Shown piece after piece: positions 4,562-49,150 of a stretch of 64,000 nucleotides of DNA. The stretch lies in the NCBI GenBank assembly GCA_027488835.1, contig JAIYAW010000008.1, positions 124,001 to 188,000 of the forward strand. The letters are read 5' to 3'. A program made the position numbers and the translations under genes. The notes beneath the pieces are model-generated. The model worked only from the letters and a program-made list of their open reading frames with translations. It was not told where the DNA came from and made no database searches. Source of the DNA: Bacteroidota bacterium (lineage in GTDB: Bacteria > Bacteroidota > Bacteroidia > NS11-12g > UBA955). The first letter of the stretch is position 1. Each line of letters begins with the position of its first letter.

Positions 4562-5703
4562 TGTTGCCTGAAGAAAATATTGACCAACTCTTCCGTTCGA
4601 CATTGGAAAATGCAAAGGAAATTCCGCCTCTAAATGCTTGGCAGGGGATTTCTAATCAATTATCTAATGTTTCTGGAGCTTCTCAAGGAGTTGTTGCAAA
4701 AAGTTGGTTTGCAAAATTGGGATTGGTTTCTAAAGTTGCGTTCCTTGCTACAGCAATAATCACAAGTGTTGCTTATGAATTATCGAAAACTGATGATTTA
4801 AATTTTACTCAAAACGAGGTGCTTTCAACTCAAAATGAAATTAGCCAAAATGATATTTTACCGGTGGGAATTGACAAAGGTGTTACAGAATCAAATAAAA
4901 TAAGTACTCCCAATCCTTCTGTCAATACTTCCAACAAGAGTCAAAGCCAATCACAAAATGGAATAGCCAAAGTATTTGAAGTTTATCCTCCTCTTTCTGA
5001 ATTGAATAAGGATCTTTTGGCTACGAATTCTTTTAGAAATGAAGATAATTTGCTAAATAGCATTCAATCTATCATTGCTAGTAACGGTGAAGTACAAAAA
5101 TCGAAAAATGAAACTTCAACACTAATTGGGAATTTGATTGAAAATGGGTGCAAGAATAAAATTGCATTGAACGCTGTAGAATCTGATTCAAATGGTACAT
5201 TGGTTCAAGTTAATTGTAATGGGAATGTAAAAAATTCATATTTGAATTTTGGAGATGGACAACAGGTGTATTTTGAGGGAAATACGATTGCTACAAATCA
5301 TTTTTACAAAGTAAATTCTAGAAAAGATTTTTATATAAAATTAATTTCAATTTTTTCTAATGGTTGTAAAGACAGCGCAATGACCAAAATTGAAGTAAGT
5401 CCTTCAATACCAATCAATGAAATCATGATTCCAACTGTTTTTACACCCAATGGTGACGGTAAAAATGATGCATATTACATAACAATTCCTGAACCGAAAA
5501 TTTTCGAAATGATGGTTTTTGATAAAGGTAAAAAAATGATATTTTCCACTACAAAATTCCGTGATTCATGGAACGGTAATTGTTTTGGAGAGCCATGTAT
5601 TGACGGCAATTATGAGGTTGTAATAAAAACGCAATACAGCGGTGAAAAAGAAAGTGTATCAACACGTTGGGTAAATTTAAATCGAAATTCTAATGGAAAT
5701 TAA
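4561..5703 (+). CDS. Anti-sigma-like membrane protein with PKD-like and T9SS type B (CHU_C) domains
   Basis: ATG 4561, overlapping the sigma stop by one base, gives 380 residues; an in-frame ATG at 4534 is possible. Residues 1-35 (IDQLFRSTLEN, then PPLNAWQGISNQL) match the cytoplasmic segment commonly found in Bacteroidota proteins encoded right behind ECF sigma genes. One membrane helix lies at about 55-72, then a low-complexity S/N/Q-rich linker, a PKD-like module around NFGDGQQVYFEG, and from about 289 a CHU_C domain opening TVFTPNGDGKND. The likely role is to hold the sigma factor at the inner membrane and sense envelope state. The oddity is the sorting-type C-terminal domain on a protein with an inner-membrane anchor. 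Anti-sigma function is inferred from position and topology. Confidence 0.7.
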   Translation: MLPEENIDQLFRSTLENAKEIPPLNAWQGISNQLSNVSGASQGVVAKSWFAKLGLVSKVAFLATAIITSVAYELSKTDDLNFTQNEVLSTQNEISQNDILPVGIDKGVTESNKISTPNPSVNTSNKSQSQSQNGIAKVFEVYPPLSELNKDLLATNSFRNEDNLLNSIQSIIASNGEVQKSKNETSTLIGNLIENGCKNKIALNAVESDSNGTLVQVNCNGNVKNSYLNFGDGQQVYFEGNTIATNHFYKVNSRKDFYIKLISIFSNGCKDSAMTKIEVSPSIPINEIMIPTVFTPNGDGKNDAYYITIPEPKIFEMMVFDKGKKMIFSTTKFRDSWNGNCFGEPCIDGNYEVVIKTQYSGEKESVSTRWVNLNRNSNGN

Positions 5704-5770
5704 TATGAAAAATAATTGGTTTGGAAAAATCATAGAATTGCCACAAAATAATGGACAAAATGGTCTATTG

Positions 5771-5801
5771 TTTGGTAAATCAACAAAAAAACCTATTTTT
5801 G
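5771..5801 (+). promoter_or_regulatory. Bacteroidota promoter deciding the start of the giant surface protein
   Basis: TTTG (5771-5774), 19 bp, then TATTTTTG (5794-5801): both halves of the Bacteroidota consensus at ideal spacing. Transcription would begin near 5808, about 20 bases before ATG 5828. This argues that the giant gene has its own promoter and starts at 5828, not at the upstream in-frame ATGs 5693 or 5705. Confidence 0.65.
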
Positions 5802-5827
5802 AACTTTTACGTACGAAAAATAAACTT

Positions 5828-8800
5828 ATGAAAGGATTTTCCTTATATTTAAAAAGCTGGGTAGTGATGCTTGGCACATTGTTTTTAGGATCCAATATTG
5901 CAAATGCACAGTGTGCAATTCAGTATAGCGGCTCTCCTTGCGTTGGATCGGCAATAATTTTTACCGGTTCAAATTCAGGTACATCCCATGATTGGGAATT
6001 TGTTGATGCAACGGGTGCAAAATATACCAGTAGCGGTCAAAAAATTGTCAATTATGCATTTCAAAAACCGGGTAATGCAAAAATTACCTACATCACAACA
6101 ATTGGTGGTACCAAATGTACTGCGGTGTTGGATTTGGTAATTAAAGACAAACCAAAAATCAAAATGAAATTGGTGAATCTCAAGCAGCAATGTTTTGAGA
6201 AAAACTTATTTTGTTTTGATGATAGCACATCCAACAAAAACGGTGCAAAAATTACGAGTACAAAATACGTTATATCTGATGGTCAATTATTTCAATACGA
6301 TTTTCCGCCATCGGTAATGCCCAACAGATTGTGTTTTTCAATTAAAGATCAACGCGGAGGTAAGTTTGACCTTTATATCGAAACAACAGATGAAAACGGT
6401 TGCCAAGATACACAATTGTTATCTGAGGCTGTGGAAGTAAGAGCTAAGATAGGAGCTCAATTTACAAGTAATAAGCCAATAGCGTGTGATTCTGTACAAG
6501 CGATTATCAAAAACATTAGCAGTATCAATCCAACCTTCGTAAAGAAAATTACATGGTTTTGGGGTGATGGTACTACCGATACATCGTGGGGTCCCAACTT
6601 CACACACTGGTTTTATGGACAAGGTACCTATAATTCTAAAATGGTTATTCAAACCATTGACGGTTGTATTGATTCATTTAAAATGACAGCAACCGCTACA
6701 GTTTTCCGTTCGGTAGCAATTATTTTAGCTGATAAAGATTCAACTTGTATTTCTGCGCCAAATATTAAATTTAGTGTGAATGAAATACCTTCAGGTGCTA
6801 CAGGTTTGTTATGGACATTTGGTGACCCGAACTCTGGCCCCCAAAATACAAATAATAGAACGTGGACGCCCGAACATGCTTTTACAGGATTAGGTCCTTT
6901 CTTAATTAAATTGGAATATAAACATCCAATATGCGGAAACAAGGTTACTTATGATACAATTATTATCTTAGGTCCTTCTTCTGCAATTGAGTCAGCATTT
7001 CAAAGGGTAGCTGATTATGAAACATTCCAATGTCCAAAAGATGTAATGGATACAGTGCATTTTAGGAAAAACTTGTCGACCTTCTATCACAATGATAGAA
7101 ACTTTACTGATGATGATAGTACTTTCTATAAAAAAGGTACACCAGCATTGGGTCACGTGTTCCAAGGAACTGCTAAAAATCCAACACAAGTTTGGTTAAA
7201 ACCAATAAGATTGGATACCAACTTAAATGGAACAGTTACCAGATATTCTGGTACTGCTTCTCCAGGTGGTGGATTTGATCCATTGAAAAGAGAAAGAGTT
7301 TGTGCTACGCGTTTGTGGGATTTTGGTGACAATTACGCACCGAAATGTACAACCGACACAAGAGCAAACAAAAACGTTTATGTAAACTGCGCATTCTCTA
7401 GAGACTCTATTCCGAATCACTATTATAGATCTTGGGATTTGGTAATGTTGTCTGATTTCAAAAATGCACCTATGCAAGATGCAATATTCTTGGATACGGG
7501 AATATTTAAAGGACAAGGATTGTGCAAAACAGTTCAAGTATGGCCTTCAGACAGTATGTACGTCATTGAAGATACATTGATTGTGGTGCCAACAGATATG
7601 AATGATATTGTTACTGCATCAGGTCCGCAGTTTGTTGGGAATAAAACGACTACTTATTATAATTATGGTCAGTATACTCCAGCTGTGCCTTCTTCTACTA
7701 AAAATCCAACCGGTAATACTACCCAAAAAGGAATGCGCGGTGTTGGACAAAGATATTTTGAAGATTATGTGGATGTGAAATTGGAAGCTGGTGATTCTGC
7801 TTATGTTGGTCCAGCATCCGGTCCATTTATTTTAAAGAAAGGGCCTCAAACAATTTCTATGGCTCCGAAGCAAATATTAAAATTAAAAAGCAAATCTGAT
7901 AGTTGTACTTGGTTATTTACTTATTACCTGAAAAAGGATACTTTGCCAAAAGACTTATATTTAATCCGTAAGGCGAAAGGTGAAAATCCAAAAGTTCTTA
8001 GTCGTTATAGAAGGAATTTCACCAACGGAGGTACTTTGGTTAGAAATAGAGATTTCTTCGTGAATTACAAACGCTTCCGTGAGTTGTATTATGCTCAAAT
8101 CCCTCAATGTAATAATGTGAAGCTAACACATAAAGATACTTGTCATCCAATGAAATGCGAAAGCGAAGCAATCAAGCAATTGTCGATGCTTCATGCAAAT
8201 GCAGGTGGTGTAGGTAGTGGTATGTTGAAAGATGCAATTGAGTGTTTGGGTTCTGATAACCCATCTTATGGTGTGACATTTATTTTGAGTGACTTAAAGC
8301 CTGGTTGTACTTTTACTGAAGTAAAAATTAATTATGATACTTTCTGTGGTAACTCTGCGGGCAACTGGAGTTCATTGCCGGGATTGTTCCCTGGTGGTCG
8401 TCCGTTGAACCCTCCAGCACCATATTGGAATACAGGATATCAGTTGGGTGGTAACCCTCCAAATAGATTCTCACAAGTATACAATCCTTCTGATGTTTGT
8501 AATGATTCTACGGGTTGTGTAACTGTGGGTATTATTGTCGGAAATGGTATTGCCCCTCCAGGTGGTAACGCTGCAAAACGTCCATTGTGTGCTGATACTC
8601 AGTATTATGATCGCTTTGCATGTTTCCCAATTATCGATACTGATTTTGAAATGTTAACACCAACCAAAAATAAATTGGGTGATTATAAAATTTGTAAATA
8701 CAATGATATTGTAGTTCGTCCTGTACCTAAGAATAAGACGCGAATTAAAGATTTGAAATCATTGCGTTGGAGATTAACTACTGGAGATGCAACTCCTGTA

Positions 8801-11443
8801 TTTGCCAAACAGTGGTCTGAATTTATACAAGAAGATTACTTACTGAATCAAAAGTTAGTACCGGGTAAAAATCCTAACTACCTTTATAACTATATGATTC
8901 AAACTCGTGGTCTTGAAAACCCGCGTCAGGTGCCATGTTCAGACGAATGGGCTGACGGCGTAGCTAAAAACTACAAAGGTCCAGATACTATTTTCACTTC
9001 TGAAATTCGTAAATATACCATTGGTGCTGACGTTTCATTGGTATGGGATAACATCAAGACCAAATTGGAAGCAAGAGGATTTGATCCATTTGCATTGGCT
9101 GATACAATGATTGCGAAAATGATTTGGAATAACAAAGGGGTAATTGGTCAACCTAGCACTGGTGCTTATGGCTGTATTGATACCACTGGTTTTGGTAAAT
9201 TTATTAAATTCTACTTTATTCCTGATCCAAAGAATACCACAATATTGCACTACCGTGATTCATCTATTTCACCGTTGGATAGCGTTACTTACTGGGATAA
9301 AGCAGCAAGAAAAACTAAAAAGGTTAAAGGGTATAAATTCAAACCACGTTGGGCTGGTTTCCATATCATGAGTTTGAATATGACTTCATCTAATGGTAAA
9401 TGTGATAAGGTAAGTGCATATCCAATTATTGTTGGTTTTGCCATGGGATTAAGAATCAATGATACATTGGTTTGTCAAGATGCGGGTAATTCATTAACAG
9501 CATCACCAGACTTTAGATACTTCTCTACAGATCCACAAAACTTTGGACAGTGGGATTGGAAGTACCAATGGAATACTGATCCAACACAAAATCCTACGGG
9601 TTATGATTATTGGAGAGATCCAGCGCGTTCAGCGCGTTTGACATCAGGCGACACGAACGTAGAAAGAGTTACACGTTGGGATTGGAACAAAAGAGACGAC
9701 GCTACATCAACTCCATTTGGAGGTGCTCCATATGGTGCGGTTGGTGCTGGTACAAATGCAAACCCATGGAAACAATTGGGTGGCGGTGGAATCTACTATA
9801 CCAATGATTCTGGTGTTTACACATTCAGAGTGGTTGCCGGTGACTCAACAGGTTGTATGGATACTTTAACCAAGAGAGTATTTATTTCTAGATTGGACGT
9901 TAAGTTTGGTTTAGATTTACAAACTCCTTCTTGTAACTCAATCATAGAGTTTTATGATTCTTCTAAGTTATTTGATCCTTGTAATTGGGCAATTAAAAAT
10001 TGTTCAGGTGGTGCTCCAACTTCATGTGATTTCGTAAAACAGTGGACAATTGATTGGGGAGATGGTATTGTCAATCAGTTTACCCGCAAAAAACAATCTG
10101 AAGCTGGTTTGCCAAACCGTATTGCACATAAATATACACGCAACGGTTGGTTCCAGATTAAATATCAATTGTCTACTCAAAGAGGATGTTTCGATACATT
10201 TAGCCGTTGGGTGAAAATTCCTGGACCTCGTCCAAGATTTGAATACACCACCAAGGCTGGTAATGATGTAACCATTTGTATGGGCGATAGCATCCAGTTT
10301 ACGAATATGTCTGATTCAGCTTCTATTAAGTCAGTATGGACATGGTTCTTCGGTGACGGTGAATTGTATTCTGGTCCAGATTCTACTTGGTATACAAAAG
10401 CACCAAATGGAAAACCTTGGGCTTCTGATTACTTTGTTGATACTGTTTGGCATACATTTAAAAAACCAGGTGTTTATAATGTTCGTCTTGAGCAATATGA
10501 CTACTTGTTTATTCCTCCAAATATCTTCCGTCCTTGTCCTGCTACTTACCCAGACACTCCGAGCCAACGCGCTTATATCGTCACTGTATTGCCTCGTGAT
10601 ACTGTGAGAGGTAGCGTTTTGAAAGCTGCAATTTGTCCAGGTGATAGCAATACGTTCATTGATAATTCAGATACAATATTGAAAAGATACAAATGGAAAT
10701 TTGTACACTACAGTAAAAAATTAGGTAAAGTTGTAACAGATACACTTTCTTCTAATAATAAAACTGTTTCAAAAATGTTCACGGATCCAGGTGTTTATAG
10801 GGTTTCTCATTATGCAGATTACAATGGTTCTCATCCGAAACCATGGTGTCCAACTGTAATGGGTGATATGTTCTTCACTGTGGATAGTGTGATCGCTGAT
10901 TTTGATATAGATTCTAGTGGTAAACCAGACTTTGTATTTACGCGCAAAGATCTAAATGGAGTAGAATGGAGATGGGGTTTTGGTCATCAAAATGATATAG
11001 CTAATTCAATGCCACGTGATTTTATTGAAAACTTGAAATCTACTGACAAAGATGTTCGTTGGTCTTATGATAGTTCAGGTAGATATTGGGCTTGTTTGAT
11101 TGTGAAAAATGCAACTGGTTGCTCTGACACAATATGTAAAGAAGTAGTAGTTGACTTGTTCGTTTACTTGGCAAACGTTTTCACACCTAATGGTGATAAC
11201 AAAAACGATTTGTTCAAAGTTCCAATTCAGGGTCACGATTTATTTGAAATACGTATCTTTAATCGTTGGGGAGAAAGAGTATTCTATTCTGAAGATTCTA
11301 AGAAACATTGGAATGGTAAAGTTAACAATGACGGACCAGATGCTCCTTCAGGTACTTATTTCTACCAGTTAGATTATAAGTTCAAATCTAAAACTAAAAT
11401 TAACCACGTAAGTGGATCAGTAAATCTGATAAGAACACAATAA
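5828..11443 (+). CDS. Giant PKD-repeat surface protein exported by T9SS (type B sorting domain)
   Basis: With ATG 5828 the product has 1871 residues and a clean signal peptide (KSWVVMLGTLFLGSNIANA, then QC). The body holds several PKD/Ig-like modules marked by WGDG or FGDG signatures (for example FWGDGTTDTSW, WDFGDNYAPK, DWGDGIVNQF, FFGDGELYSG) and many paired cysteines, fitting an extracellular adhesin. The last ~85 residues form a CHU_C/gliding-motility-associated domain (NVFTPNGDNKNDLF, IRIFNRWGERVF, SGTYFYQLDY), which directs T9SS export and surface attachment. It follows the sigma/anti-sigma pair, whose membrane protein carries the same C-terminal domain. An in-frame extension from 5693 or 5705 is less likely because a promoter lies inside it. 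A terminator follows. The ligand is unknown. Confidence 0.88.
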   Translation: MKGFSLYLKSWVVMLGTLFLGSNIANAQCAIQYSGSPCVGSAIIFTGSNSGTSHDWEFVDATGAKYTSSGQKIVNYAFQKPGNAKITYITTIGGTKCTAVLDLVIKDKPKIKMKLVNLKQQCFEKNLFCFDDSTSNKNGAKITSTKYVISDGQLFQYDFPPSVMPNRLCFSIKDQRGGKFDLYIETTDENGCQDTQLLSEAVEVRAKIGAQFTSNKPIACDSVQAIIKNISSINPTFVKKITWFWGDGTTDTSWGPNFTHWFYGQGTYNSKMVIQTIDGCIDSFKMTATATVFRSVAIILADKDSTCISAPNIKFSVNEIPSGATGLLWTFGDPNSGPQNTNNRTWTPEHAFTGLGPFLIKLEYKHPICGNKVTYDTIIILGPSSAIESAFQRVADYETFQCPKDVMDTVHFRKNLSTFYHNDRNFTDDDSTFYKKGTPALGHVFQGTAKNPTQVWLKPIRLDTNLNGTVTRYSGTASPGGGFDPLKRERVCATRLWDFGDNYAPKCTTDTRANKNVYVNCAFSRDSIPNHYYRSWDLVMLSDFKNAPMQDAIFLDTGIFKGQGLCKTVQVWPSDSMYVIEDTLIVVPTDMNDIVTASGPQFVGNKTTTYYNYGQYTPAVPSSTKNPTGNTTQKGMRGVGQRYFEDYVDVKLEAGDSAYVGPASGPFILKKGPQTISMAPKQILKLKSKSDSCTWLFTYYLKKDTLPKDLYLIRKAKGENPKVLSRYRRNFTNGGTLVRNRDFFVNYKRFRELYYAQIPQCNNVKLTHKDTCHPMKCESEAIKQLSMLHANAGGVGSGMLKDAIECLGSDNPSYGVTFILSDLKPGCTFTEVKINYDTFCGNSAGNWSSLPGLFPGGRPLNPPAPYWNTGYQLGGNPPNRFSQVYNPSDVCNDSTGCVTVGIIVGNGIAPPGGNAAKRPLCADTQYYDRFACFPIIDTDFEMLTPTKNKLGDYKICKYNDIVVRPVPKNKTRIKDLKSLRWRLTTGDATPVFAKQWSEFIQEDYLLNQKLVPGKNPNYLYNYMIQTRGLENPRQVPCSDEWADGVAKNYKGPDTIFTSEIRKYTIGADVSLVWDNIKTKLEARGFDPFALADTMIAKMIWNNKGVIGQPSTGAYGCIDTTGFGKFIKFYFIPDPKNTTILHYRDSSISPLDSVTYWDKAARKTKKVKGYKFKPRWAGFHIMSLNMTSSNGKCDKVSAYPIIVGFAMGLRINDTLVCQDAGNSLTASPDFRYFSTDPQNFGQWDWKYQWNTDPTQNPTGYDYWRDPARSARLTSGDTNVERVTRWDWNKRDDATSTPFGGAPYGAVGAGTNANPWKQLGGGGIYYTNDSGVYTFRVVAGDSTGCMDTLTKRVFISRLDVKFGLDLQTPSCNSIIEFYDSSKLFDPCNWAIKNCSGGAPTSCDFVKQWTIDWGDGIVNQFTRKKQSEAGLPNRIAHKYTRNGWFQIKYQLSTQRGCFDTFSRWVKIPGPRPRFEYTTKAGNDVTICMGDSIQFTNMSDSASIKSVWTWFFGDGELYSGPDSTWYTKAPNGKPWASDYFVDTVWHTFKKPGVYNVRLEQYDYLFIPPNIFRPCPATYPDTPSQRAYIVTVLPRDTVRGSVLKAAICPGDSNTFIDNSDTILKRYKWKFVHYSKKLGKVVTDTLSSNNKTVSKMFTDPGVYRVSHYADYNGSHPKPWCPTVMGDMFFTVDSVIADFDIDSSGKPDFVFTRKDLNGVEWRWGFGHQNDIANSMPRDFIENLKSTDKDVRWSYDSSGRYWACLIVKNATGCSDTICKEVVVDLFVYLANVFTPNGDNKNDLFKVPIQGHDLFEIRIFNRWGERVFYSEDSKKHWNGKVNNDGPDAPSGTYFYQLDYKFKSKTKINHVSGSVNLIRTQ

Positions 11444-40818: not shown

Positions 40819-41280
40819 ATGAAAAGACTTGTTCAGGAACAATTTTTACCGGTGTCATTAGAAACTGCTTGGAATTATTTTGCAACCCCAAAAAATCTAA
40901 ATGACATAACTCCTAAGGATATGGTTTTCAAAATCGTTTCTGAATTGCCAGAGAAAATGTATGAAGGCATGTTTATTCAGTATAAAATTAAGCCAATGTT
41001 GAATATTGAATTAAATTGGTGCACAGAAATTACGCATATTGTTGAGGGACAATTTTTTGTTGATGAGCAGCGTAAAGGTCCATACAGTATTTGGCATCAC
41101 GAACATCATTTTAAGGCTGTTGACGGTGGGGTATTAATGACAGATATTTTGCATTACGAAGTGGGCTTGTCTTTTTTAGGTTGGATAGCGAGCAAGCTTT
41201 TTGTAGATAAAAAAGTGGAGCAAATTTTCAAATTCCGTAGATTGGAATTGACTAAAATTCCGGTATTTCAGGTTAAGTAA
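40819..41280 (+). CDS. SRPBCC superfamily ligand-binding protein
   Basis: A 153-residue START/Bet v 1-like protein: FLPVSLETAWNYFATPKNLNDITP at the N-terminus is the typical SRPBCC opening, and FVDEQRKGPYSIWHHEHHF and GGVLMTDILHYEVGLSFLG continue the fold. Proteins of this group are often annotated as cell-division inhibitor-like cyclase/dehydrase domains; they bind a hydrophobic ligand, unidentified here. A TATCTTTG box (40768-40775) lies 43 bases upstream and could be its promoter. Confidence 0.8.
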   Translation: MKRLVQEQFLPVSLETAWNYFATPKNLNDITPKDMVFKIVSELPEKMYEGMFIQYKIKPMLNIELNWCTEITHIVEGQFFVDEQRKGPYSIWHHEHHFKAVDGGVLMTDILHYEVGLSFLGWIASKLFVDKKVEQIFKFRRLELTKIPVFQVK

Positions 41281-41377
41281 CGGGTCAAATTTGAGTAACA
41301 TTAACAATTTATGTAATTTTAACACTTAAATAACAGATTTACGTTTGTGTTTTGGTGTTAATTATACATAGTTTGAT

Positions 41378-41385
41378 TATCTTTG
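41378..41385 (+). promoter_or_regulatory. TAnnTTTG -7 box before the type A cargo gene
   Basis: TATCTTTG, 24 bases before ATG 41410. A TTTG at 41351-41354 is 23 bp upstream, longer than the ideal 19, so this is a moderate match. Confidence 0.45.
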
Positions 41386-41409
41386 TATCAATTAAACAAT
41401 AAAAAATTT

Positions 41410-44148
41410 ATGATTTCTTTCCTAAAACAATTGAATTATTCAAAAAGAATTTTCATTTTGAGTCTAATTTCATGTTTATTTACAATAAATAGTCATGCAC
41501 AAACAATAACTAGCATATCATCTGCCGGTGCCGTTTCTGCAGGATCTAGTTCTGCTTATAACTTAAAATGGACAACTTCCACAACCACTACGAATATTGA
41601 AAAGCAAATTGATTTGACTTTATCATCTATTTCAGGTGGTACTAAGTTAATTTTCAATGCGTCCAATACGGCAGATTGGGAGGTCTTAATCGGATCACCG
41701 GGTTCGAATAGTTGGAAATCGTTTTGTCAAGTTAAAAGTTTATCCGCGGGTCAAACAACCGAAACTGTGTTTGTCCGCAATATTTCAACGAATGCCGGAA
41801 CATACAACAATACAATAACCATTGGTTTTGGTTCAAATTGTAGTTCGTATACTACTGCAGTTACGTTTAATGTAACTGTACAAAAAACAGCAAACGGAGT
41901 TTATACTTGGGTTGGGGCAAGCGGAATAGATAGTACTTATGGCAGATCTGATAACTGGTCTCCTGCGAGAACGTCGCCATCTACCTCTGATGTTTTGGTT
42001 GTAGATTTAGGCTCTGAAACTACTCCAGTGAAAACATCAATTAATATCTCTGGTGTAACCGAAACTATCAATCAATTTAAAATTTTTGATTATAACACTG
42101 TTGATTTTGTTTGTTCAACTTCTAATTCAAAATGGACAATAGGAAATAGTGGGTCATCGGGTTTGGGAGCTGACTTTGTGATTAATCCAAACTCAGCAAT
42201 GCGTAAAACTGGAAATGCAACATTAGAATTGGTAATTCCTTCATCTGATTCATTAACTGCAATGGGTTCATTGCATACGATTGCTGGAGAATTAAAATTC
42301 ACAGGAGCTGGTAAACAAATTTTCTCAAATACAATTAATACCTTGGGTGGGTTGTTATCTTTTATTCCGAGCACGCTCAATACACTATACTTGGATGGTG
42401 TATCACAAACAATAACAGGTAATTCTGGTACATTATATATTGATTCAATGATGAATGTACAAGTTGGAAAGGGATCGACTACAACGGCATTGACATTAAA
42501 TAGATCATTACCTTTATTCAGTACTCTAAGTATTTTGGGTAATACTACAATTAACTCCAATACTCCCTCAAGCGCAAGCGCTGCAGATTGGAATTCTTGG
42601 GTACCTTATTTGCAATTTAGATCAGCTACGAGAGTAGGTGCTAAAAGTAGAGGTGAGTTGGATGTATTTCCATCAACAGCAACGATTAATGGAGGTTGTT
42701 TATTTGAAATTCAAGGAACCAATGTACGTGCATACCGAATGTTCGGTATTCCTCTGAAAAACGGAGTGAATTTATCTCAGTTTACTGATAATATTGATAT
42801 CACGGGGAGCTATGCCTTTAAAAATAAAGATTCATTTTCTACCACTTGTAGTAATTGTATTTCATCAGCATTTACTTGGTATGAATCGAGTCAATCTTGG
42901 GGTGCTTTTAGTTCAGGGAATAATGCCAATGTAGTGCCTCATGGTACGGGAATTATGATGTTCTTTAGAGGAGCTAAAGGATATAATTTGGGTAAGCCAG
43001 ATAGTGATGCAAATGCTTCAACTATTGATTTTAAAGGACAACTTTTTACTGGTGATCATACTGTAAGTCTAGATTATAATAGTTCTGGTGCTGATCCAGC
43101 CTTGAAGGGATACAATCTAATTAGTAATCCTTATCCTTGCGCTATAGATTTTAAAGAAATCACAAAAGCTTCTGGATTTAAACAGAAGTTCCAAGTATAT
43201 GATAGCCGTGCAAAAACCTATAATGTTTGGGACAGTACTTTAGGTTTATCAAAGTCAGGGTCATCCAAATTTGTAAATGGATCAAGAAATGCGAGTCGCA
43301 TAATTGAAGCGGGTGCGTCATTTTTTGTTGTTGCCAGTAACACAGGGCAAAGTTTAACTTTTACAGAAAATTCAAAACGTGCGGGTTTGAAATCAACAAT
43401 TGATCATTTTAAAGCATCTTCAAATAATTTGAAATGTAACGAATTGAGAATTGGAATTAGGTTTGGTAATGATAGTATTCCTGAAAACGACAATGCGTTG
43501 ATTCAATCCGATATGAATTATGACAAAATTGTGAATGAAAAGGATGAATTCGATGCACCAAAATTGTTTGGTGGGTTCTTAGGTATAGGTCCTCTTACCC
43601 CTGATAATGTATGGATGTCAATTGATCGCAGGCCTGCGTCAGAGTTGAAATCTTATACAATTCCGTTGAAAGTAAAAACGCCTGAAAATAATAAATATAT
43701 AATTTCTTTCGATGGTTGTGAAAATAACGCTGGTCGTTATGAGATTTCTTTGGTAGATAAAATGCTCAATAAAGTAGTTCGCATGCGCAATGGGTCTGAG
43801 TATTCGTTTACAAAGTCTTTAGGAGATGCTTTGATAGAAAATAGATTTGAACTTTTGTATAATTCAAATATTGAAGTTACTACAGGGCTAAACGTTGCTG
43901 TACAAAATAAATTCACTGTGTACCCAAATCCAACCATTTCTAACGAAATAAATATTGTGAGCAATTCTGAAAATAGGATTCAGAAAGTTGAAATTTATTC
44001 AATGGATGGAAAATTGGTTCAATCATTTAACACCGATAATCATTCAAGTTCTGAAATTTGCAAAATTAATTTTGCTGGTAAAGGTACTTTTATTATAAAA
44101 ATGATTGGTAACAAATCAGTTGGAACAGAAATTATAATCGCCAAATAA
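41410..44148 (+). CDS. Secreted protein with T9SS type A sorting domain
   Basis: ATG 41410 gives 912 residues with a signal peptide (LSLISCLFTINSHA, then Q); a TTG at 41383 is inside the promoter box and rejected. The body is beta-rich and low in conserved motifs; a segment near the middle (GYNLISNPYPCAIDFKEI) matches repeat-like parts of large Bacteroidota surface proteins. The last ~75 residues form a type A sorting domain (FTVYPNPT, VEIYSMDGKLVQSF, GTFIIKM, then a basic-poor end IIIAK). It should be exported by T9SS and linked to or released from the surface. The exosortase operon follows after 39 bases, but a promoter in between suggests separate transcription. Specific role unknown. Confidence 0.82.
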   Translation: MISFLKQLNYSKRIFILSLISCLFTINSHAQTITSISSAGAVSAGSSSAYNLKWTTSTTTTNIEKQIDLTLSSISGGTKLIFNASNTADWEVLIGSPGSNSWKSFCQVKSLSAGQTTETVFVRNISTNAGTYNNTITIGFGSNCSSYTTAVTFNVTVQKTANGVYTWVGASGIDSTYGRSDNWSPARTSPSTSDVLVVDLGSETTPVKTSINISGVTETINQFKIFDYNTVDFVCSTSNSKWTIGNSGSSGLGADFVINPNSAMRKTGNATLELVIPSSDSLTAMGSLHTIAGELKFTGAGKQIFSNTINTLGGLLSFIPSTLNTLYLDGVSQTITGNSGTLYIDSMMNVQVGKGSTTTALTLNRSLPLFSTLSILGNTTINSNTPSSASAADWNSWVPYLQFRSATRVGAKSRGELDVFPSTATINGGCLFEIQGTNVRAYRMFGIPLKNGVNLSQFTDNIDITGSYAFKNKDSFSTTCSNCISSAFTWYESSQSWGAFSSGNNANVVPHGTGIMMFFRGAKGYNLGKPDSDANASTIDFKGQLFTGDHTVSLDYNSSGADPALKGYNLISNPYPCAIDFKEITKASGFKQKFQVYDSRAKTYNVWDSTLGLSKSGSSKFVNGSRNASRIIEAGASFFVVASNTGQSLTFTENSKRAGLKSTIDHFKASSNNLKCNELRIGIRFGNDSIPENDNALIQSDMNYDKIVNEKDEFDAPKLFGGFLGIGPLTPDNVWMSIDRRPASELKSYTIPLKVKTPENNKYIISFDGCENNAGRYEISLVDKMLNKVVRMRNGSEYSFTKSLGDALIENRFELLYNSNIEVTTGLNVAVQNKFTVYPNPTISNEINIVSNSENRIQKVEIYSMDGKLVQSFNTDNHSSSEICKINFAGKGTFIIKMIGNKSVGTEIIIAK

Positions 44149-44152
44149 ATAA

Positions 44153-44182
44153 TTGTAATTTAGAATAAATTAGTTAAATTTG
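44153..44182 (+). promoter_or_regulatory. Promoter of the exosortase operon
   Basis: TTG (44153-44155), 19 bp, then TAAATTTG (44175-44182): ideal Bacteroidota spacing. The box ends five bases before ATG 44188, so the transcript would be nearly leaderless. Confidence 0.6.
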
Positions 44183-44187
44183 TAACA

Positions 44188-44379
44188 ATGAAAAATTTTT
44201 TAAAACACACAATAGCTGTAGCATTATTTACAGTTGCTGTAAGTGCATTAATGGCACAAGGAACTCCAAATACGGATCCAGATGCTTCAGTTCCTGTTGA
44301 TGGTGGTATTTTTTCCGTAGTAGGTGGAGCAATCGCTTACGGTGTTTACCGCGTTAAAAACAGAAAATCTACTAAATAA
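44188..44379 (+). CDS. Tiny exosortase substrate with a PID-CTERM-like sorting signal
   Basis: A 63-residue pre-protein: signal peptide of ~24 residues (VALFTVAVSALMA, then Q), a ~14-residue acidic/Pro/Thr spacer (GTPNTDPDAS), then the sorting signal VPVDGG, a glycine/alanine-rich hydrophobic stretch and the basic end VKNRKSTK. This tripartite tail is the exosortase recognition pattern in Bacteroidota (PID-CTERM type). The exosortase gene follows after four bases, so it is the obvious local substrate. After both cleavages only a short peptide would remain, making it more a peptide tag or pilot than a structural protein. Confidence 0.85.
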   Translation: MKNFLKHTIAVALFTVAVSALMAQGTPNTDPDASVPVDGGIFSVVGGAIAYGVYRVKNRKSTK

Positions 44380-44383
44380 TTCT

Positions 44384-44941
44384 ATGATTTTCAAGGGTGT
44401 TTCCACCCAAATATTGAAGGAAGTTTCTTTGAGCAAAGCCCAAAGAAATTTCCTTTTTTTTGTTTTAATAAGCTTAATTATTTTTCCAGTTCTGAATAGC
44501 ATAGATGGGTTGAATGATTTTTTTACACATTTAGCGGCAACTGGTTCACGATATTTAATTGAATTGTTTTCCGGGGTAAAACCTTGGGGTTATTATAATC
44601 CTTTGAAATCTACATACCATGTTTTTGATTCAAGGGCCCATGTGCTTATAGGTGAGCCTTGTAATGGCTTGGATCTTTTTTACCTTTGCGTTGCATTTAT
44701 TATTGCAATTCCCAATGTTTCTTGGCAAAGAAAATTGATTTTTTCAACTAGTGGATTTCTCATTTTATTTATAAGTAATTTGCTTAGAGTTACTGCATTA
44801 TTTTTTGTAGCGAGAAATATGCCTGATTGGTTTGATACATTTCATAAAACCATCTTTCAATTATTGGTATACGGTATTATGTTTGCAATATGGATAATTT
44901 ATCTAAAGCCATTGAGTGGCAAAAAAACACAAAAAGAATAA
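44384..44941 (+). CDS. Exosortase family protein (XrtF/XrtX-like)
   Basis: ATG 44384 gives 185 residues; an upstream in-frame GTG at 44324 lies inside the substrate gene and is rejected. About five membrane helices carry the exosortase catalytic set: Cys93 in EPCNGLDLF, Arg135 in SNLLRVTAL and His154 in FHKTIFQLLVYG. It is a membrane cysteine transpeptidase-like enzyme that cleaves the PID-CTERM tail and probably transfers the protein to another envelope component. It sits between its substrate (4 bases upstream) and a small membrane protein that overlaps its end by 52 bases. The short length matches Bacteroidota exosortases; assignment to XrtF or XrtX is not certain. Confidence 0.88.
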   Translation: MIFKGVSTQILKEVSLSKAQRNFLFFVLISLIIFPVLNSIDGLNDFFTHLAATGSRYLIELFSGVKPWGYYNPLKSTYHVFDSRAHVLIGEPCNGLDLFYLCVAFIIAIPNVSWQRKLIFSTSGFLILFISNLLRVTALFFVARNMPDWFDTFHKTIFQLLVYGIMFAIWIIYLKPLSGKKTQKE

Positions 44942-45339
44942 TCGTATATAGTTTTGTATTACTAGTTTTAAATTTTGTTTTTCAATTTATTTCGAATGAA
45001 ATAGTTTTTCAAAACAAGAATTATCAAAGTTTACAATTCTTATTTGCGAATAAGGTTTTTCGATTTTTCTATCGAGAAATCATTGTATATACATTTGGTT
45101 ATTTGGGGTTTCGTTTTATTTCTAAAAATGTTTCGAAATTTTGGGCCAAACTATTTATTTATTTTTTACTTTTATTTGATTTTTGTTTAGGTTTAATTGG
45201 AGTTTCTCATTTTGTTTTCAATGAAAATATTCTATTGGAAAATATTTACAATTATCTTGTCATTTTCATTGCTTCACCTTTTTATTTCATGGCTTTCGTT
45301 ATTTTCGCTGTGTATCTGAATAATCATGAAAATGATTAA
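44890..45339 (+). CDS. Exosortase-associated small membrane protein
   Basis: A 149-residue protein with four predicted hydrophobic helices and aromatic-rich loops (NKVFRFFYREIIVYTFGYLGFRFISK). It matches, in size, order and texture, the exosortase F system-associated membrane proteins found next to xrtF in Flavobacteriia; the assignment is by context. ATG 44890 is the only good start and lies 52 bases inside the exosortase gene, an unusually long overlap. It may stabilise or partner the exosortase. Confidence 0.65.
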   Translation: MDNLSKAIEWQKNTKRIIVYSFVLLVLNFVFQFISNEIVFQNKNYQSLQFLFANKVFRFFYREIIVYTFGYLGFRFISKNVSKFWAKLFIYFLLLFDFCLGLIGVSHFVFNENILLENIYNYLVIFIASPFYFMAFVIFAVYLNNHEND

Positions 45340-46432
45340 GAATTGGAAAAAGCAATTTGGCTGTTTTTTATTTTTATTTATAACTGTCAATTACTGTTAT
45401 TCTCAATATTCCTTATCCTTGCAATATTTAAGAGGTGAAATGTTGCCTCATTCCGAATATACCCAACCATTAAAGGCGATGGTTGATGGAGTTCAAATTG
45501 ATGCATTATGGAAACTGCGTATGGATCAATCTTCCAAACTTACCTCAAGTTCTAATGCTGCTTATTGTCCTAAAATTGGTGGTTCTCTTATTTTTATAAA
45601 TAATGGGTTATCCGTAAGTGGATATCAATTGGGTGTTGGAGTAACTATGGGTGCAGAAATGTCAACAAAAAAGGAATGGTTGTTATCTTGGTCTTTAACA
45701 CATGGCCTATCATATGTTTCTGAAAAGTATGATACATTTACTAAGCCAATAAACTATGCAATTGGAAGTTATATTAATTTTTTAGCTCAACTTAAAATTG
45801 AGGCACAATATAATGTGTTGCCAAATTTTTCGGTTGCTCTTGGTGCAAATTTAACACATGTTTCAAATGCCAATTTTGCAAAGCCCAATGTTGGATTAAA
45901 TTCCATTCACGCAAATATTGGTGTTATATATTTTCCAAACGAAGTTTATAATACAGAAAGAAGCTCTTTTTATTTGCATAAAAGGAGATATTATACGAGT
46001 CCTTTATCCGTTGGAATGCGTTATGCCATAAGAGCGCATACACTTGAGTATCCTAATTCTTTGTCAACGGTAATTACAGATATCCAATATAGGATTCAAA
46101 AATCGGCGAATCACATTTGGGATGTTGGACTTGAATTTTTTTCTGATGATAATTACAAATTTGATAAATATGGAAATTCAAATGATATAACAAATTCAGA
46201 ACAATGGGAGTTGGGACTAAAATTTGGTCATCAATATGTTTTTGGTAGGTTAGGATTGCGAACAGATTTAGGAATGTACTTGTTAAAGCCAATTTTTAGC
46301 GAGAAGCCAGCCTTTTATAATTGTTTTGGTATAGATTATAGGTTGAGTCAAAATTGGGTCGCTAGAACGCGTTTAAAAGCGCATCTGAATATAGCAGATT
46401 ACATGGAATTCGGTTTCAGTTATTTGTTGTAA
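45326..46432 (+). CDS. PagL-like lipid A 3-O-deacylase (acyloxyacyl hydrolase family), outer-membrane barrel
   Basis: A 368-residue outer-membrane protein with a signal peptide (FLFLFITVNYCYS, then Q). The block LTHVSNANFAKPNVGLNS matches the PagL catalytic segment (HxSNA...PNxG), containing the His-Ser dyad that removes the 3-O acyl chain of lipid A. It is longer than enteric PagL but typical for Bacteroidota homologues. Its start overlaps the preceding membrane-protein gene (14 bases, or 8 with ATG 45332), so it belongs to the exosortase operon. This links the sorting system to lipid A or outer-membrane remodelling. A bidirectional terminator follows. Confidence 0.8.
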   Translation: MKMIKNWKKQFGCFLFLFITVNYCYSQYSLSLQYLRGEMLPHSEYTQPLKAMVDGVQIDALWKLRMDQSSKLTSSSNAAYCPKIGGSLIFINNGLSVSGYQLGVGVTMGAEMSTKKEWLLSWSLTHGLSYVSEKYDTFTKPINYAIGSYINFLAQLKIEAQYNVLPNFSVALGANLTHVSNANFAKPNVGLNSIHANIGVIYFPNEVYNTERSSFYLHKRRYYTSPLSVGMRYAIRAHTLEYPNSLSTVITDIQYRIQKSANHIWDVGLEFFSDDNYKFDKYGNSNDITNSEQWELGLKFGHQYVFGRLGLRTDLGMYLLKPIFSEKPAFYNCFGIDYRLSQNWVARTRLKAHLNIADYMEFGFSYLL

Positions 46433-47692: not shown

Positions 47693-48376
47693 TTAAAATT
47701 TGATTCCTAATCTAATTCCTGAATTTGTTTGCAAAGTGAATCCCATTCTTGAACCTAAAAATACTTCTCTGGTTTCATTGTTGCCATTATTCCAATATTG
47801 GGCTGTGCCATTGTCATTATAACCAAATCCATATCCAATTTCAGCACCCAAATAAATACTTGGAATGATATAATAATCAGCCCCAAATACAAGTCCACCG
47901 TATATTGAAAATGCACCCGAGTTAATTAGTGTCATTTGACCATTTTCAGTAAAAGTAACTCCGTTCAATGTATTGGTGCCATCCTTACTCATAGTTGAAA
48001 TCCCCATACCCGCTTCAGCGCCAACGTATGGTGAAAGTTTTTCAGTTCCAGGCAGGTGTTTTTCCACTCCTAAAATGAATTTTAAGTCGGTACTTTGTTG
48101 ATTTATTGTAAATGGAGGATTACCAGGTGCCATGCCATCATATGAATAATCGGTATTTTGATTAAAACTAAAGGCCAATCTTGTTCTCAAGGCGATATCT
48201 TTTTTTAGGAAATAACGCATCCGGATTTCTGAAATACTCAGACCAATGGGTGCACTACCTGTTTGGATATTCAAAGTTGTTTCAATTGTTTTATTTCCTT
48301 TTTCTGCTTTTTGCGCAAAGCTGTATTGAAAAAGTGAAGTAAATACAAAGAATGCGATAATTGATTGTGATTTCAT
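47693..48376 (-). CDS. Outer-membrane beta-barrel protein, paralogue of the gene upstream
   Basis: ATG 48376 gives 227 residues with a signal peptide (FFVFTSLFQYSFA, then Q). The rest alternates polar and hydrophobic residues as a small OmpA/OprF-like 8-strand barrel (IRMRYFLKKDIALRTRLAFSF, KLSPYVGAEAGMGIS, YYIIPSIYLGAEIGYGFGY) and ends GIRLGIKF, with terminal aromatic. It lies 12 bases downstream of its paralogue (48389-49150); both share the IxxRYF and YYIxxxFYLG(T/A)EI blocks, so they arose by tandem duplication. Function unknown. Confidence 0.75.
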   Translation of the reverse strand: MKSQSIIAFFVFTSLFQYSFAQKAEKGNKTIETTLNIQTGSAPIGLSISEIRMRYFLKKDIALRTRLAFSFNQNTDYSYDGMAPGNPPFTINQQSTDLKFILGVEKHLPGTEKLSPYVGAEAGMGISTMSKDGTNTLNGVTFTENGQMTLINSGAFSIYGGLVFGADYYIIPSIYLGAEIGYGFGYNDNGTAQYWNNGNNETREVFLGSRMGFTLQTNSGIRLGIKF

Positions 48377-48388
48377 ATGTTTCTGCAA

Positions 48389-49150
48389 TTAAAATTTATA
48401 TCCCAATCTGATGCCATTTGTATAAGTCAAAGCCAAAGAAGAGTTAGTGCCTAAGCTTTCTCCAGTGGTCAATGTTCCAGTAGGACTCAAAATTGACTTA
48501 TCTAAATTGCCCAAACTTACTGATTCATAACCATATCTAATTTCTGTCCCTAAATAAAAATTAGAATTTATATAATAATCCAATCCCACTATTCCACCAG
48601 CGTATACACCTTGTTGGGTAATTGAAGAATTATATATAAATCCTTTTTTGTACGTTGATGCATCATCGGTATTTGTTCCATTCACTGTTTTTGAACGAAT
48701 GGAAAATACCAATTCTACTCCCCAATACGGCGACAAATCATTTTTGGATTTAATATGTTGTTCAACGCCACCGCCAAGAGTAAATGATTGATTTGTTTCA
48801 TAAATTTTTGCACTTTCATCTTTGTCACCGGTAATTGTTTTATTGATAGACGACATTGTAATCATTCCTCTACCTCTGTATGCTCGCTTTTCCGAAATGA
48901 AATATCTTACTTTTATTTCGTCAAACTTAATTCCCAAAGGCTGATTCATCAGTTGAAGATTTAAAATTCCCTCAAAAGTAATATTGTCTTTTTTTGCCTT
49001 TAAGTATGGACCAACATTGTTTTGATTATTATTAACATTATTGTTGTTTGCATTGATATTTGCAACAGTATTGATTGCTTTTGCTGGTGTTTGGGCACCA
49101 ACGGAATGAAACATGAAACAAGCAAAAATTGCAATAAAAAGCGTTTTCAT
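48389..49150 (-). CDS. Outer-membrane beta-barrel protein with Asn-rich linker
   Basis: A 253-residue protein with a signal peptide (FIAIFACFMFHSVGA, then Q), an unusual asparagine-rich linker (residues ~32-46), and a barrel like that of the downstream paralogue (IKVRYFISEKRAYRGRGMI, YYINSNFYLGTEIRYGYE, ending GIRLGYKF). It is first in a two-gene operon. No family function is recognisable. It is transcribed divergently from 49210-49806. Confidence 0.75.
   Translation of the reverse strand: MKTLFIAIFACFMFHSVGAQTPAKAINTVANINANNNNVNNNQNNVGPYLKAKKDNITFEGILNLQLMNQPLGIKFDEIKVRYFISEKRAYRGRGMITMSSINKTITGDKDESAKIYETNQSFTLGGGVEQHIKSKNDLSPYWGVELVFSIRSKTVNGTNTDDASTYKKGFIYNSSITQQGVYAGGIVGLDYYINSNFYLGTEIRYGYESVSLGNLDKSILSPTGTLTTGESLGTNSSLALTYTNGIRLGYKF

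Follow-up and report, generated by a model that had tools for sequence, protein, structure and literature searches.

What does an exosortase with a very short dedicated substrate do for its host, and which neighbouring gene product does it work with? The question is raised by a locus within a 64,000-nucleotide stretch of DNA (the window), which is part of a 2.49-Mb Bacteroidota genome in nine contigs. A first-pass annotation of the sequence had described a four-gene, one-substrate exosortase operon that included a homologue of the lipid A deacylase PagL, and had proposed that the peptide, once sorted, is joined to outer-membrane lipid or monitors it. The exosortase cassette is real, and of a widespread but little-studied kind. 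Within the literature searched, in which subscription papers were largely outside scope, we found no described function for any PID-CTERM or XrtX system.

Gene layout of the locus

All four open reading frames were found, all on the + strand and overlapping or closely spaced as had been described, with successive spacings of +4, −52 and −14 nt (Table 1). The exosortase frame might also open further upstream, at a GTG at 44324. What did not hold is the start of the unit at 44188, because a gene for a 921-aa T9SS cargo, ending 39 nt upstream of the substrate gene, shares the same presence/absence block.

The first-pass annotation had placed a clean promoter before the substrate gene, and a site of Bacteroidota type does stop just short of the substrate ATG; we take it to be of the −33/−7 type. 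Its −7 box, TAnnTTTG, recurs 9–13 nt upstream of the ATG in 6 of the 9 PID-CTERM genes of this bacterial family, so that the PID-CTERM mRNA made from this promoter may be nearly leaderless. Over a wider set, where the box was found ahead of 14 of 41 PID-CTERM genes and of 67 of 310 control open reading frames, conservation is only slight. Since the PID-CTERM gene has a promoter-like site of its own, co-transcription with the cargo gene is not required.

Table 1. Features of the locus, in window coordinates
Feature	Position	Strand	Remarks
START/SRPBCC-like resident gene, left of the block	40819..41280	+	~153 aa; name presumed
Block absent from close relatives	41272..45397 (about)	+	T9SS cargo, PID-CTERM, exosortase and small membrane protein genes
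T9SS type A cargo gene	41383..44148	+	921 aa; TTG start of open reading frame, ATG at 41410 probable; TIGR04183
Promoter-like site, TTG-N19-TAAATTTG	44153..44182	+	presumed Bacteroidota −33/−7 type
PID-CTERM-like substrate gene	44188..44379	+	63 aa; NF046080, 21.2 bits (cut-off 26)
Exosortase gene, XrtX-like	44384..44941	+	185 aa from ATG; Cys93/Arg135/His154
Membrane-protein gene 3, overlapping the exosortase gene	44890..45339	+	149 aa
PagL-family barrel gene	45326..46432	+	368 aa; THVSNAN from residue 177

An exosortase cassette of the XrtX/PID-CTERM kind

Genome-wide, the window exosortase was the one protein to exceed the cut-off of the exosortase/archaeosortase superfamily model TIGR04178 (54.1 bits, cut-off 23). 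A related-locus search of genome contigs returned one locus. The Cys, Arg and His residues of a cysteine transpeptidase, which had been assigned to positions 93, 135 and 154, were verified there. Across 18 aligned exosortase homologues, Cys93 and Arg135 do not vary, and 17 of the sequences keep His154. The exosortase at L015:5668-6207, in genome G002, has Asn at the His154 position, which may mark either an inactive enzyme or a tolerated change.

NCBIfam defines a three-part system composed of a PID-CTERM substrate (NF046080), the exosortase XrtX (NF046081) and an XrtX-associated membrane protein (NF046082). XrtX is the best specific model for the window exosortase (88.1 bits, cut-off 170), followed by XrtF (64.6 bits, cut-off 90), both scores lying under the respective cut-off. 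The substrate also scores below the cut-off of its family (Table 1), and gene 3 matches no NCBIfam family directly, NF046082 included. Comparison of gene 3 with NF046082 by hhalign (probability 37%, E 3.5e-4, 76 columns) suggests, but does not prove, a remote homology; by position, gene 3 is the counterpart of the XrtX-associated membrane protein. As all three window proteins fall under the curated cut-offs, the unit is, judged by these profile scores, a divergent XrtX/PID-CTERM variant and not a filed member. It resembles the known system in its short substrate with signal peptide, P[VI]DGG motif, helix and basic tail, in an overlapping partner gene of equal size, and in an identical gene order, the PID-CTERM, XrtX and partner relatives of the wider loci being arranged as in the window. 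It differs, apart from the scores, in a predicted mature peptide that is acidic and lacks the CWPPPC stretch of many sampled XrtX substrates, and in that the block also carries a T9SS cargo.

In 29 of 34 exosortase loci, the window counted, the exosortase gene has a partner gene of 142–196 aa overlapping it or directly adjoining it, and NF046082 was matched in four of the wider loci with a score under its cut-off. The exosortase gene lies directly downstream of the PID-CTERM gene in 22 of 41 cases in our first sample and in 12 of 20 in the second. The exosortase with a very short dedicated substrate next to it, which the first-pass annotation had picked out, is thus the usual arrangement of XrtX-like systems, and one exosortase with one short peptide is an ordinary unit in Bacteroidia. 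The probable role of the cassette is to trim a very short exported peptide and attach it.

Short substrates and their predicted mature peptides

PID-CTERM sequences were detected in 169 of 396 Bacteroidia genomes (E ≤ 1e-4), mostly once per genome and in short open frames. The genome that holds the window has two matches at E ≤ 1, the second being a 66-aa orphan at C6:5002 which, at 32.4 bits, is over the cut-off; the description of the locus as serving a single substrate therefore fails. Many other PID-CTERM proteins in the genome would have weighed against a dedicated unit, and here the result is mixed: a second one exists, but with two matches in all, a set of many further substrates is ruled out.

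Cleavage before Gln24 and processing after DGG would leave a mature window peptide of 17 aa, QGTPNTDPDASVPVDGG, which agrees with the earlier view that the mature substrate would be only a short peptide. The two predicted mature peptides of the genome, of ~17 and ~18 residues, both begin with Gln and so fit the Bacteroidota Q-rule (PMC5837995, PMC10653852). Conservation extends past the sorting signal, with QGVPDDPD shared within the family and an acidic motif of the F[DE]DDVxD type recurring in mature PID-CTERM peptides, distant genomes included (L171, L185, L018:4891-5091 and L021). The F[DE]DDVxD peptides exist next to a different, CWPPPC type.

Among the relatives, ten genomes gave PID-CTERM matches, of which four were set aside as chance. 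Those in G019, G037 and G050 are open frames of ~35 aa, and that in G066 lies inside a 367-aa frame; none combines a signal peptide with VP[VI]DGG. A fixed order of the four genes across genomes stood only in part. The substrate gene is away from the exosortase gene in G002, G011 (on C6) and G012, whereas all four same-genus genomes with an exosortase at this site (G000, G002, G011 and G012) keep exosortase, partner and pagL in one order, overlapping or directly adjoining. Besides its pagL-linked exosortase, G011 holds a second, more distant one (L017, G011:C2:67000-80000) with its own 77-aa PID-CTERM substrate and T9SS cargo.

Boundaries and distribution of the block

In all ten same-genus genomes that lack the exosortase, pagL stands directly beside the counterpart of 40819–41280, which we take to be a START/SRPBCC-like gene, with no cassette between them; the two are on the same strand in nine of the ten. 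Alignment by blastn with the three closest relatives (G010, G013 and G008) breaks at 41268–41271 and resumes at 45398–45400. What these relatives lack is thus the stretch from the T9SS cargo gene through the PID-CTERM and exosortase genes to gene 3, with pagL marking its end. Joint gain or loss of the exosortase module and the large cargo gene, as a single block placed upstream of a resident pagL, belongs to the explanation set out below, in which, as a whole, we place somewhat better than even confidence. The block is 4 kb long, close relatives have empty sites in its place, and it provides a minimal gene set for deletion or transfer.

The exosortase search was positive in 5 of 97 relatives, plus G028, in which the contig ends inside the exosortase gene, just past the PID-CTERM gene. 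A search for cargo homologues that left out the sorting domain was positive in 6 of 57 relatives (G000, G002, G011, G012, G016 and G028). With the four chance PID-CTERM matches set aside, cargo, PID-CTERM and exosortase are confined to the same six of the 57, a count that comes from related genomes and does not amount to 57 independent trials.

Linkage to T9SS cargos

The 921-aa protein passes the T9SS type A model TIGR04183 (38.5 bits, cut-off 23) and thereby resembles known type A cargos in having a C-terminal sorting domain; it has no other recognised domain. A T9SS sortase gene is present in the genome (NF033707, 991 bits). Elsewhere in the window, positions 5693–11443 encode a 1916-aa protein whose C-terminus, as we presume, resembles a T9SS type B sorting domain.

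Full-length homologues of the cargo were found only in same-family genomes that hold the cassette. Outside the family, partial matches occur in 5 of 396 genomes, at E 2.6e-23 or weaker, and of these only G432 is also PID-CTERM-positive; on this count we rejected the idea that PID-CTERM genes are everywhere tied to the cargo family of the window. Since matches to that family are nearly absent outside the bacterial family, any wider link involves T9SS cargos of diverse types. Such a link is seen. In the first sample, 18 of 41 PID-CTERM genes are immediately preceded, on their own strand, by a T9SS cargo gene; among the other closely spaced same-strand gene pairs of these loci, taken as background, the figure is 6 of 288 (Fisher p ~9e-14). 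The second sample gave 9 of 20 against 3 of 123 (p ~5e-7). These samples, of 40 and 20 regions, were chosen by hand from the 169 PID-CTERM genomes and are mostly high-scoring and non-random. The T9SS profile was seeded from several cargos, and the first sample shares loci with these seeds, whilst the second does not. TIGR04183 matched 22 of the 24 cargos scanned, and besides the sorting domain no common Pfam domain was found among them. For about half of the PID-CTERM genes in the two samples, the gene immediately upstream is not a T9SS cargo.

G012 and G011 have a split unit, in which the PID-CTERM gene has remained with its T9SS cargo and the exosortase is elsewhere. The PID-CTERM neighbour in G002 is a different large T9SS-like protein, located downstream, the sequence homologue of the window cargo being on another contig. 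At L087, L071 and L100 the T9SS cargo lies between the exosortase/partner genes and the PID-CTERM gene, so that the pairing of cargo and substrate is kept as the position of the exosortase varies. Thus, the T9SS cargo looks like a better partner for the exosortase substrate than PagL. It gives a concrete, testable partner to a system whose substrate family is present in 169 of the 396 sampled Bacteroidia genomes. The literature searched, again with subscription papers largely outside its scope, held no description of an exosortase substrate paired with a T9SS cargo.

A proposed mechanism and its alternatives

Our best explanation, which we consider probable though well short of settled, is that the locus is a divergent XrtX/PID-CTERM module with a block-linked T9SS cargo, whose peptide serves a T9SS-delivered surface protein. 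Counting against it are the window XrtX and PID-CTERM scores, which lie under the cut-offs, and the lack of a family match for gene 3. The cutting of the substrate, its joining to a carrier and its working tie to the cargo are steps that we infer from the sequences. Sec would export the 63-aa precursor, and signal peptidase I would expose Gln24, which would probably cyclise to pyroglutamate, the usual outcome in Bacteroidota, while the C-terminal helix would keep the precursor in the inner membrane. Cys93 of the exosortase, aided by Arg135 and His154, would then cut near VPVDGG, and the acidic peptide of ~17 residues would be joined through its new C-terminus to a carrier, either lipid or glycan, with the 149-aa partner protein assisting. 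At the outer surface, the conjugated peptide would serve a T9SS-delivered protein, for example the 921-aa cargo, as an anchor, a receptor or a matrix component. It is rather unlikely, though worth stating, that the idea extends to Bacteroidota at large, with an exosortase-made peptide conjugate dedicated to one specific T9SS cargo, perhaps as its acceptor or anchor on the surface, and with the inner-membrane exosortase and the outer-membrane T9SS jointly building one surface structure.

Some published observations bear on a tie between exosortases and T9SS. The Flavobacterium johnsoniae XrtF system resembles the window unit in having an exosortase and a neighbouring partner gene (Fjoh_1448/1449), but the available parts of its description mention no adjacent short substrate, and they tie it by experiment to colonisation and biofilm: deletion of xrtF or of the partner gene reduced both and abolished zorbs (PMC10936215). 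In the summary table of mutants in the same source, the entries for the xrtF and partner-gene deletions equal those for porU and porZ, and nearly equal those for porV and sprA (PMC10936215). By analogy these mutants lend support to the exosortase–T9SS idea, short of proof, as the exosortase there is XrtF and not XrtX. For Porphyromonas gingivalis, a further report discusses exosortase loci together with the T9SS linking sugar, by way of VimA-like genes (PMC7468200).

The same peptide might instead be conjugated to a surface polysaccharide, or assemble or retain one, the adjoining T9SS cargos then acting as matrix binders. Beside many XrtX loci there are genes on the opposite strand that end in YGYGYG repeats, which we take to be Wzc-like, and several PID-CTERM genes without an upstream T9SS cargo face such a gene; exopolysaccharide may therefore be the more general theme. 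Two reports add that exosortases were first linked to exopolysaccharide clusters (PMC10936215, PMC7468200), and one of them that the F. johnsoniae mutants lose biofilm (PMC10936215). However, no polysaccharide genes were identified beside the window unit, where part of the window genes were annotated, and the co-occurrence of cargo and cassette in the family and the enrichment of the T9SS neighbour in two samples point elsewhere. On balance we give the polysaccharide reading a modest chance, to be taken seriously but doubtful.

It is quite improbable that the peptide is released unconjugated, as a signal, an inhibitor or a chaperone for the cargo; whilst it is very short and conserved past the sorting signal, with the F[DE]DDVxD-type motif even in distant genomes, the exosortase keeps its cysteine transpeptidase residues and has a dedicated partner gene.

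The resident gene pagL

The fourth gene is PagL-like, as had been described. The barrel passes the Pfam PagL model PF09411 (44.2 bits, cut-off 23) and contains, within LTHVSNAN, the H-x-S-N motif, which we take to be the catalytic motif of this putative lipid A deacylase. A PDB sequence search with the protein gave no match. Of 10 aligned barrels, 8 keep the motif; the two that have lost it are those of G002 and G011, where, as in two further genomes, pagL follows the exosortase. In each of these four same-site genomes gene 3 overlaps pagL, and exosortase, partner and pagL are therefore possibly co-transcribed there.

The gene is nonetheless distributed independently of the exosortase, in which it differs from a component of the unit. 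Homologues of the window pagL are present in 14 of 14 same-genus genomes, ten of them without the exosortase, and PagL-family genes in 90 of 97 relatives; the three closest relatives carry a pagL that is 78–82% identical and lack the cassette. By coordinates, a PF09411 search found no PagL adjoining the PID-CTERM gene in 40 wider PID-CTERM genomes, and a less sensitive profile built from the genus detected none in 20 further PID-CTERM loci. PagL thus falls outside the presence/absence block, and we regard its gene as part of the resident core of the genus, adjoining the module without belonging to it. A four-gene unit in which the peptide is attached to or monitors lipid A, as the PagL-like enzyme modifies that lipid, is then highly improbable, despite the intact motif in the window barrel and the constant exosortase–partner–pagL order with its possible co-transcription, given how widespread pagL is without the cassette, the absence of PagL hits near the 60 sampled PID-CTERM genes and the two motif-less barrels beside an exosortase. 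Setting this reading aside removes a misleading hypothesis about lipid A. Next to pagL, at window positions 47693–49150, lie two tandem outer-membrane-barrel-like genes, which occur together in some relatives and are reduced or lost in others.
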